This document shows, in pieces, positions 27,578 through 30,968 of a stretch of 35,381 bases of DNA. The stretch spans positions 1-35,381 of the forward strand of contig CAJXMB010000004.1 in assembly GCA_913056105.1 (NCBI GenBank), in the 5' to 3' direction. A model generated the notes under the pieces. That model was not told where the DNA came from. It made no database searches and was given only the letters and a program-made list of their open reading frames with translations. This DNA is from an uncultured Nitratiruptor sp. GTDB lineage: Bacteria; Campylobacterota; Campylobacteria; Campylobacterales; Nitratiruptoraceae. Numbering within the stretch: position 1 is the first letter of the stretch; each line of letters starts with the position of its first letter. The position numbers and the translations under genes are program-made.

Positions 27578-29425
27578 TTAAAGTTTAATTATACCAGGAA
27601 AAATTAATAAAACTATTAAAGCCAAAATTTGCAAAATAATAAATGGAATTACTCCTTTATAGATATCTTTTGTGCTTACCAAATTTCCAGCTGCTCCTTT
27701 TAGATAAAAGAGAGCAAATCCAAAAGGAGGAGTTAAAAAGCTACTTTGTAGATTCATAGCTATTAAAATAGCAAACCATATTGGGTCAATTCCAAATGTA
27801 TGAATAATTGGAACAAAAAGCGGTATAACAATAAACGATATTTCTACAAAATCAACAAAAAATCCAAGTATAAAAATTGAAACCATTGCTATAAAGATAA
27901 ATAGCCACTTACTTCCTATATCTTGACTAAAAAAGTTATGAACTAACTCTCCACCTCCTAACTCATTAAATACCAAACTAAAAGTTGTAGCACCTATTAA
28001 AATCGCAAAAATCATAGAGGTTAGCTTAACTGTCTCAATAGTTGAATATTTAATCATCTCAAAATTTAGGCTTTTGTTAAAAAGAGTTAAAACTAAAGCA
28101 CCAACAACACCCATTGCAGCTGATTCAGTAGGAGTTGCAATCCCAGCAAATATTGAGCCAAGCACTGCTACAATAAGCAAAAATGGAGGAATTATAGAAA
28201 AAAGAATATCTTTTTTTGTTACCTTTTTTTCAAGCTTCACAGGAGGAGCTGCATCTTTTTTAATATATGAATATATGAAAATATATGCTATATAAAAAGC
28301 CACAAGTAAAAGTCCAGGAACCACAGCAGCTCTAAATAGATCTCCCACACTAACACTCATAACATCGCCCAAAATAATTAAAACTATTGATGGAGGTATG
28401 ATTTGCCCAAGTGTTCCACTTGCAACTATAGTTCCAGAAGATAGCTTTTTATCATATCCATATTTTAACATTATAGGAAGGCTTATAATACTCATCATAA
28501 CAACACTTGCTCCAACAATCCCAGTAGCTGCGGCTAAAATTGCTCCAACTACTACTATGCTTACTGCTAACCCTCCTCTAACTTCTCCAAAAGCAGCACC
28601 AAGATTTTCTAAAAGATTTTTAGCTAAATTACTCTTTTCTAAAATAAGTCCCATCAAGATAAATAGTGGAACTGCCATTAAAGTAAAATTTTGCATAATT
28701 CCATAGATTCTCATTGGAAGCATCTTAAATATATCTAAACTCAAATCATAATCACTAAAAGCAAATAAAATCCCAATAAATCCAAAAACAAAAGCTACCC
28801 TAAACCCACTCATAAGCAAAACTAAAGCCAATAAAAACATCAAAATTGATGGCTCTAAAATAAAATTTAAATCTAAACTAAATAGATACAGAATAGCTCC
28901 AAAAACAATCAAAGAAAAAAGAATAAATTTAAAATTTTTTATTTTCATATATGACTTTATAATCTCAGAAATTGCTTGCAAAAAGAGCAAAATCGCACTT
29001 ATCACAATAGCGGATTTAATCAAATATCTACAACAAAGACCTCCAGGATCACTTGAGGATTCATGTTGTATGTAACTTTGAAGAGCAAAATCATATCCAA
29101 AATAGATAATAAGAAGTGAAAAAGGGATAATTAAAAATAGATTATCTAAAATATTTATATACTCTTTTGTTTTTGAAGAGAATTTTTCAAAAAATATATC
29201 AACTCTTACATGTTTATCATGTTTTAAGGCATATCCAATTCCAAGTAAAAAAGTTAGATCAAAAAAGTGCCACTCAAGCTCTTGAAGAGCGATTGAACCT
29301 TCGTGAAATAGGTATCGCATAAAAGCATCATAAAAGACTAAAAATGCTAAAGCTAAAACTATAAAAGATGCAATAGAGGCAACAAAACTATTTAATCTAT
29401 CTATATAGTAAGAAAGTTTATTCAC
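27578..29425 (-). CDS. Fused TRAP transporter permease (DctQ-DctM)
   Basis: A 615-residue inner-membrane protein combining both TRAP permease subunits. The N-terminal 175 residues form four helices of DctQ type (ELEWHFFDLTFLLGIGYALK, HVRVDIF), and the remainder is DctM (PLFILMGLILEKSNLAKNL, GTLGQIIPPSIVLIILGD, GIATPTESAAMGVVGAL, FLTPPFGFALFYLKG). TRAP systems import organic acids using an ion gradient and a periplasmic binding protein. No DctP-type binding protein is in the window, so the substrate is open. I choose GTG 29425, with AAGGA 7 nt upstream, over a TTG at 29455 that lacks an SD and overlaps the small membrane-peptide gene. Confidence 0.92.
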   Translation of the reverse strand: MNKLSYYIDRLNSFVASIASFIVLALAFLVFYDAFMRYLFHEGSIALQELEWHFFDLTFLLGIGYALKHDKHVRVDIFFEKFSSKTKEYINILDNLFLIIPFSLLIIYFGYDFALQSYIQHESSSDPGGLCCRYLIKSAIVISAILLFLQAISEIIKSYMKIKNFKFILFSLIVFGAILYLFSLDLNFILEPSILMFLLALVLLMSGFRVAFVFGFIGILFAFSDYDLSLDIFKMLPMRIYGIMQNFTLMAVPLFILMGLILEKSNLAKNLLENLGAAFGEVRGGLAVSIVVVGAILAAATGIVGASVVMMSIISLPIMLKYGYDKKLSSGTIVASGTLGQIIPPSIVLIILGDVMSVSVGDLFRAAVVPGLLLVAFYIAYIFIYSYIKKDAAPPVKLEKKVTKKDILFSIIPPFLLIVAVLGSIFAGIATPTESAAMGVVGALVLTLFNKSLNFEMIKYSTIETVKLTSMIFAILIGATTFSLVFNELGGGELVHNFFSQDIGSKWLFIFIAMVSIFILGFFVDFVEISFIVIPLFVPIIHTFGIDPIWFAILIAMNLQSSFLTPPFGFALFYLKGAAGNLVSTKDIYKGVIPFIILQILALIVLLIFPGIIKL

Positions 29426-29429
29426 TATT

Positions 29430-29528
29430 TCATCCTTTTTTAAAAAAGTATTCAAAAATTTTTTGTAAAGCTACTATCACAAATACCAAAATTACAATTG
29501 CTAAAAATTCAAGAAAAAAGTTTTTCAA
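29430..29528 (-). CDS. Small 32-residue membrane peptide between murF and the TRAP gene
   Basis: TTG 29528 opens a 32-codon frame ending TGA 29430. The peptide begins MKNFFLEFLAIVILVFVIVA and ends with a basic, aromatic tail, EYFFKKG, giving one hydrophobic span of about 17 residues. SD AAGGA (29539-29535) lies 6 nt upstream and overlaps the murF stop. Its own stop lies 4 nt before the TRAP GTG, and its 3' end supplies the TRAP SD. It therefore fills the only gap in the operon and has the same stop-over-SD spacing as its neighbours. The function is unknown. It could be a membrane peptide attached to MurF or to the transporter, or a leader ensuring TRAP translation. Confidence 0.6.
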   Translation of the reverse strand: MKNFFLEFLAIVILVFVIVALQKIFEYFFKKG

Positions 29529-29537
29529 ATCCAATCC

Positions 29538-30968
29538 TTACATATATGATGGAGCATCATTACTAAATAGTATCAAATCTTTACTTTTTGTATAATTAGC
29601 CAAAACATCTTGAAGATTTGATTTATCTTTTAAAATAATCTTTTTTGCTCTTTTTATATTTTTATCTAAAACATCTCTATTTATTTTTCCTGTAATTATT
29701 ACCAAATCAAAAACTTCATCAATCTTTTTAGCAAGTTTTTCATTTGCCTCTTTGGTTGATTCAACAATCCCTGGAGTTACCACAACCTTTCTTCCTTTAT
29801 AACTTTTTACAAGTTCATATGAGCTAATCATTCCCTCTAAATTCCCATTATAACTATCATCTATAATTATTTTACCATTTGCCTCTATCTTTTGGAGTCT
29901 ATGCTCTATTGGTTTTAAAGAGAGCAGAGCTTTTTGAATCTCATCTATGCTCATTCCTAACTCATAAGCTACCATTATAGCAGCAGTTAAATTGATAGCA
30001 TTAAAAGCTCCTAAAATTGGTGCTTTAAAATGGTAATTTTTACCATTAAGCTCTAAATCAAAGCTAATCCCATCTAAAGAAGCCTCAACATTTTTTATAT
30101 TTTCTCCAAATTTTACAAACTCTTCTTTTTTATTTACTGGTATTTCATAATATAAAAAGGCTTTTTTTAGCTTTTTTGAAGATAAAATCTCAAGTTTTGT
30201 AGCAATAATATTTTCTATAGTCTTAAAATATTCAATATGTTGAGGTCCAATTTTTCCAACTATAACATACTCTGGATTTAAAAATGAGCTAATTTCATAT
30301 ATATCACCTCTCTCTCTTGCTCCTGCTTCGGCAATATAGATTTGAGTATCAAGAGGCAGATCCTCATTTATATCTTTTAAGATTCCCCCCAAAGTATTTA
30401 CACTTCTTGGCGTTGCATAGACTCTAAATCTATTTTTTAAAATCTGGTATAAAAAGTTTTTAATGCTTGTTTTACCATAGCTTGCAGTTACTCCAATAAT
30501 AGTTGGATTAATTTTTTCAAGCCTTTTTTTGGCTTGGTTTTTATATATTGTAAACAAAAACTTTTCAACAAGATTTGAGATTATCAAAGCTATAGCAATG
30601 GGAATAATGGTTGGAAAAACTTTGCAATTAAATTTTGCTAAACATAGCAGATCTAAAAAGAGTGTAGTAAAAAAGAGCAAAAGAAAAAATCTCTTTACTC
30701 TTCCAGTTAAAACCAACTTTTTATCCAACTTTTTTTGCCAAAGAAAAAGAGTTAAAATATAAAAGATTAAAAATATAAAGATATATTCTTTAATAGCAAA
30801 ATATATAAACAGAGGAAGTAGAAAAAAAACAATATGTAAAAGAGGTTGATGGTGGTGTAAAATAACTCTATTAATCTTATAGTTATACCATTGAAGATTT
30901 AAAATAAGATAATATCCAATGGATAAAACAAAAATTAGATGCTCTAAAAGATATAATAAATCCATCAT
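29538..30968 (-). CDS. murF: UDP-MurNAc-tripeptide:D-Ala-D-Ala ligase with N-terminal membrane domain
   Basis: MurF adds D-Ala-D-Ala to UDP-MurNAc-tripeptide, the last cytoplasmic step of peptidoglycan precursor synthesis. The 476-residue protein has about 150 N-terminal residues with four hydrophobic segments (about 4-25, 42-76, 92-111, 117-134). A Mur ligase follows: ATP loop GVTASYGKTS (159-168), the YIAEAGARERGDI and GKIGPQHIEYF region, the LGAFNAINLTAAIMVAYELG helix and KIIIDDSYNGN. The membrane extension is unusual outside Campylobacterota and would hold the enzyme near MraY. It overlaps acyP by an ATGA. The ddl gene, which makes its D-Ala-D-Ala substrate, is four genes upstream in the same operon. 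Confidence 0.94.
   Translation of the reverse strand: MMDLLYLLEHLIFVLSIGYYLILNLQWYNYKINRVILHHHQPLLHIVFFLLPLFIYFAIKEYIFIFLIFYILTLFLWQKKLDKKLVLTGRVKRFFLLLFFTTLFLDLLCLAKFNCKVFPTIIPIAIALIISNLVEKFLFTIYKNQAKKRLEKINPTIIGVTASYGKTSIKNFLYQILKNRFRVYATPRSVNTLGGILKDINEDLPLDTQIYIAEAGARERGDIYEISSFLNPEYVIVGKIGPQHIEYFKTIENIIATKLEILSSKKLKKAFLYYEIPVNKKEEFVKFGENIKNVEASLDGISFDLELNGKNYHFKAPILGAFNAINLTAAIMVAYELGMSIDEIQKALLSLKPIEHRLQKIEANGKIIIDDSYNGNLEGMISSYELVKSYKGRKVVVTPGIVESTKEANEKLAKKIDEVFDLVIITGKINRDVLDKNIKRAKKIILKDKSNLQDVLANYTKSKDLILFSNDAPSYM

Follow-up and report, generated by a model that had tools for sequence, protein, structure and literature searches.

The window, i.e., the whole stretch of 35,381 nucleotides that was analysed, comes from an uncultured Nitratiruptor sp. 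and carries on its minus strand the murF gene and, downstream of it, the dctQM gene of a fused TRAP permease (Table 1). Both neighbours are recognised by Pfam, MurF through Mur_ligase_M (6e-26) and the permease through DctM (1e-85) and DctQ (1.6e-19). The stop codon of murF is TAA 29540-29538 and the start codon of DctQM is GTG 29425-29423, which leaves a gap of 112 nt (29537-29426, minus strand) between them. An earlier note on this DNA had described a 32-residue frame, preceded by a Shine-Dalgarno sequence, that fills the gap, and the coordinates as well as the placements of both Shine-Dalgarno sequences agree with this description. The frame comprises 32 codons, from TTG 29528 to TGA 29432-29430, and its 32-aa product is MKNFFLEFLAIVILVFVIVALQKIFEYFFKKG. 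The TAAGGA motif is spaced from TTG 29528 by 6 nt; an alternative in-frame TTG at 29534 would yield 34 aa and leaves no spacer after GGA. The AAGGA of dctQM stands 7 nt from GTG 29425, and AAAAGGA is found at the equivalent site in most relatives. In the window, the stop codon of the small gene is separated from the dctQM start by 4 nt.

Table 1. Features of the murF-dctQM region of the window
Feature	Coordinates	Strand	Evidence and remarks
Small gene, predicted 32-aa single-helix membrane protein	29430..29528	-	TTG start, TGA stop; homologues, low dN against near-saturated dS, AlphaFold2
Shine-Dalgarno of the small gene, TAAGGA	29535..29540	-	Sequence; overlaps the murF stop codon; similar placement in most relatives
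Shine-Dalgarno of dctQM, AAGGA	29433..29437	-	Sequence; within the final codons of the small gene
dctQM, fused TRAP permease, 615 aa from GTG 29425	27578..29425	-	Pfam DctM/DctQ; aligns with solved SiaQM
murF, upstream neighbour, outside the proposed functional unit	29538..30968	-	Pfam Mur_ligase_M; relatives throughout the order

A homologous protein of 32-38 aa with a single helix is encoded at the murF-dctQM locus in 18 of the 22 genomes of the Nitratiruptor-containing family, a small family of vent bacteria, both within the genus of the window and across the family, and the homologues carry their own start and Shine-Dalgarno sequence at the equivalent site. The profile matches in these 18 genomes are all 4e-16 or better, which has to be read with the fact that 16 of them are rows of the search model itself; the two genomes outside the model, G016 and G017, still match the profile at 4e-20 and 2e-21. 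Beyond the family, no convincing profile match was found among 399 genomes of the order and 397 of the phylum (samples that partly overlap). The weak matches obtained there (E 3e-4 to 7e-3) lie mostly inside larger open frames, e.g., at the C-terminal end of a membrane protein of 202 aa, and were rejected. The consensus of the small protein reads MEDIKxFxxEFLAIVALVLVIVALQKxFEYxFKRKMGE (alignment A1). Substitutions were analysed in a core of 24 codons, without the part that lies under the Shine-Dalgarno sequence and start of dctQM. In this core few nonsynonymous changes have accumulated, whereas synonymous sites are nearly saturated, and the entropies of the three codon positions are 0.74, 0.39, and 1.42 bits. 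The pair G009/G007 differs by 4 synonymous changes and by 0 amino acids.

Since the same protein, together with its start and Shine-Dalgarno sequence, recurs in 18 of the 22 family genomes, the status of the gene can be regarded as settled: judged from these sequence comparisons, the small frame is a genuine protein-coding gene under protein-level selection. Could it nonetheless be an open frame that arose by chance in an AT-rich gap? The gap is short and AT-rich, and the expected share of first-order Markov sequences of the same composition that contain a closed frame of 32 aa or more is 1.6%. However, chance does not explain a protein conserved in 18 genomes or a coding-type codon pattern; this conservation refutes the chance frame, which is extremely improbable. 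The expectation of the earlier note, that this is a real small protein of the easily missed kind, was thus borne out: the frame is conserved and its substitutions are skewed to synonymous sites, with dN well below dS, rather than falling on both kinds of site alike.

The product is predicted by AlphaFold2 to form one helix of about 30 residues (residues 3-32, mean pLDDT 92.5), in keeping with the single membrane span that had been proposed for it. The N-terminus is acidic and the C-terminus carries KRK, which, by the positive-inside rule, suggests an N-out/C-in topology. The basic aromatic tail that had also been proposed is present as well, but the conservation of its KRKMGE end in the relatives is confounded, because these last 6 residues are encoded by the Shine-Dalgarno sequence and start of dctQM. 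Conservation along the helix follows a 100-degree period (p = 0.008), and the conserved face is formed by alignment columns E10, F11, A13, I14, L17, V18, V22, L24, Q25, and F28. The small protein has no Pfam or NCBIfam family above cut-off and no sequence relative in the PDB; RnfA and Baculo_11_kDa, matched weakly and far below cut-off, were rejected as relatives. When 16 members of the small protein were compared with PHROGs, a single one matched, weakly, an unnamed family there (E 0.00098), and tblastn of one relative's homologue against plasmids gave no match.

The two neighbours of the small gene differ in how they are linked to it. In 17 of the 18 genomes its end and the dctQM start overlap by 1-11 nt, while its distance to murF ranges from -4 to 130 nt, being 4-9 nt in most of the family. 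In three sister species inserts part murF from the small gene and leave the dctQM junction untouched. The insert of G002 and G004 is a multi-copy intergenic palindromic repeat (L007:2932-3060, L008:2932-3060), which is matched in part at about 10 or more sites in each genome and has a hairpin z of -4 to -5; the third species has a different hairpin-bearing stretch. The link extends to inheritance: the small protein occurs in 18 of the 19 family genomes with a fused DctQM and is absent from every family genome without one.

Single genomes add detail to this pattern. In G005 (L108), dctQ and dctM are split genes and the small protein is missing. The MurF of G005 groups with genus g1 (100/99), and its DctM rejects the genus g1 position (AU p = 0.0018), a position as sister of the whole family being not rejected (p = 0.39). 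A replacement or transfer of the dctQ/dctM cassette is likely; whichever cassette moved, the small protein goes with the fused DctQM and not with MurF. G020, 71% complete, contains murF and lacks both DctQM and the small protein. G010 has a fused DctQM without the small protein, and its MurF sister G011 has the protein, so that its absence from G010 is most simply read as loss. In other families split dctQ and dctM genes often come directly after murF, with no small gene in between, and many Sulfurovum-type fused DctQMs do not have it either (L080, L121, L123, L124). The fused DctQMs of G010 and of the Sulfurovum type imply that TRAP transporters in general can function without the small protein. 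At L080 the fused DctQM follows a TlyA-type methyltransferase-like gene instead of murF. The only gene for a DctP-family binding protein in the genome of the window lies on another contig (G000:C5:19305-20153), unlinked to dctQM, and each family genome examined has exactly one DctP gene, away from dctQM.

Three roles had been put forward in the earlier note: an auxiliary subunit of the fused DctQM, a membrane adapter for MurF, and a translation coupler for the TRAP gene. An adapter that brings the MurF ligase to the membrane would agree with a gene that comes right after murF in most genomes of the family, but nature has separated the two repeatedly. G005 keeps a MurF of the family type without the small protein, G010 and G020 likewise have MurF and lack it, and the inserts of the three species fall between the two genes. 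Moreover, MurF was found in 97 of 100 order genomes searched, whereas the small protein is confined to one family. These natural separations contradict the adapter, which is very improbable.

The translation coupler or leader, in which the frame is translated only to open the dctQM start or to supply it with ribosomes, the peptide being functionless, deserves more weight, as the Shine-Dalgarno sequence of dctQM lies inside the small gene and stop and start overlap in 17 of the 18 genomes. Coupling is probably real as a by-product of this overlap, yet it cannot alone account for the helix-face pattern or for the amino acids conserved throughout the membrane span, which is encoded ahead of the Shine-Dalgarno sequence. 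A split dctQ that directly follows murF in other families needs no such frame, and a regulatory leader or attenuator was not found, the region having neither RNA structure (fold z 0.35) nor an Rfam match. A functionless coupler is consequently unlikely. Another reading is a membrane protein that has a function of its own, e.g., in membrane stress or in regulating another partner, and shares no more than a transcript with dctQM. In favour of such a function, most small membrane proteins lack a known partner, but this one is absent wherever the family lacks fused DctQM, was never found at another locus, and keeps its tight overlap with dctQM while the murF side varies; an independent function is accordingly rather doubtful. 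Among the three proposed roles the auxiliary subunit fits best, through co-inheritance, overlap, and the conserved helix face, since a conserved face is what one would expect where a helix packs against a partner, and not where a frame serves coupling alone. The small protein is thus regarded as a candidate inner-membrane accessory subunit of the DctQM TRAP permease, with a probability of about 0.7.

Accessory proteins of this kind are known from other transporters. KdpF of the KdpFABC complex has about 30 residues and one helix, and its gene lies just upstream of, and is tightly coupled to, the gene of the main transporter subunit. The small protein shares these features, but the transporter class is different (KdpF belongs to a P-type ATPase complex) and no relation was found through Pfam or NCBIfam. 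With 32-38 aa and one membrane helix, it falls within the size of the AcrZ/KdpF type of accessory protein, which has one membrane helix and no more than about 50 residues. The conserved genetic linkage to dctQM and the joint inheritance with it also agree with this type. AcrZ of E. coli is the one-helix partner of AcrB (PMC7267776). The binding of AcrZ to this RND efflux pump was shown experimentally, whereas the binding of the small protein to DctQM is what we infer, and no sequence relation between the two was found. The small gene overlaps the gene of its presumed partner, unlike acrZ, which is not known to be adjacent to acrB.

TRAP transporters are described as composed of P, Q, and M components, to which a soluble protein, TatT, is occasionally added (PMC5812351). 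As the T-component of TPAT systems, TatT resembles the small protein in being a further product encoded alongside a TRAP transporter; however, it is a soluble multi-helix protein (PMC5812351), and identity with TatT was rejected for a hydrophobic single membrane helix of 32 aa. The fusion helix of HiSiaQM is also one extra membrane helix on the TRAP scaffold (PMC10942642). It is internal to the fused chain, between Q and M, whereas the small protein is a separate upstream product. As the DctQM studied here is already a single fused frame of HiSiaQM length, which can be aligned with HiSiaQM almost from end to end, the small protein is not the TRAP fusion helix. A search of open-licence papers revealed no small membrane subunit of a TRAP transporter.

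An additional helix at a comparable site is found in the Nautiliaceae-type DctQ (f16; loci L093, L096, L099, L102, L105, L175, L177, L179, L185), where about 30 N-terminal residues, absent from ordinary DctQ, form a helix predicted by AlphaFold2 with a pLDDT of about 90; the best structural match of the model is a SiaQ chain (E 2e-3). Like the small protein, this helix stands just before DctQ and is followed by basic residues, but it is an in-frame part of DctQ and not a separate product. Descent of the small protein from it as a split-off relative was considered and rejected (hhalign probability 0.4%, homology not detected), and no homology was found between the small protein and DctQ itself. 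Given the lack of detectable homology, the two helices are at most convergent or parallel. The f16 case nevertheless establishes that a helix at the site before DctQ is compatible with DctQ.

How would an accessory subunit of this sort be made and act? The overlap with dctQM allows coupled initiation, so that a single mRNA may serve for both products, ribosomes that finish the small protein reinitiating at, or passing to, the overlapping dctQM start, and the stop/start overlap would keep the amounts of the two products in step. The small protein would insert beside the nascent DctQ domain of DctQM, N-out/C-in. In the solved SiaQM the Q/M scaffold is the static part of the elevator (PMC10942642), and it is on this scaffold that the conserved face of the helix would dock. 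Once docked, the helix may brace the elevator transporter or tune it, in the way that AcrZ acts on AcrB.

The results have consequences beyond a single locus. For curators, the homologues constitute a new small-protein family whose profile is ready for use (alignment A1). The case also illustrates that inserts between neighbouring genes and gene replacement can assign a protein of 32 residues to its partner. In this family of Campylobacterota, the TRAP transporter would, somewhat more probably than not, consist of P, a fused QM, and a membrane subunit of 32-38 aa, the first such subunit recognised, which would dock on the elevator scaffold and tune its stability, Q-mediated self-association or transport. 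A conserved, co-inherited helix that overlaps dctQM suggests that some TRAP transporters carry a further membrane subunit.
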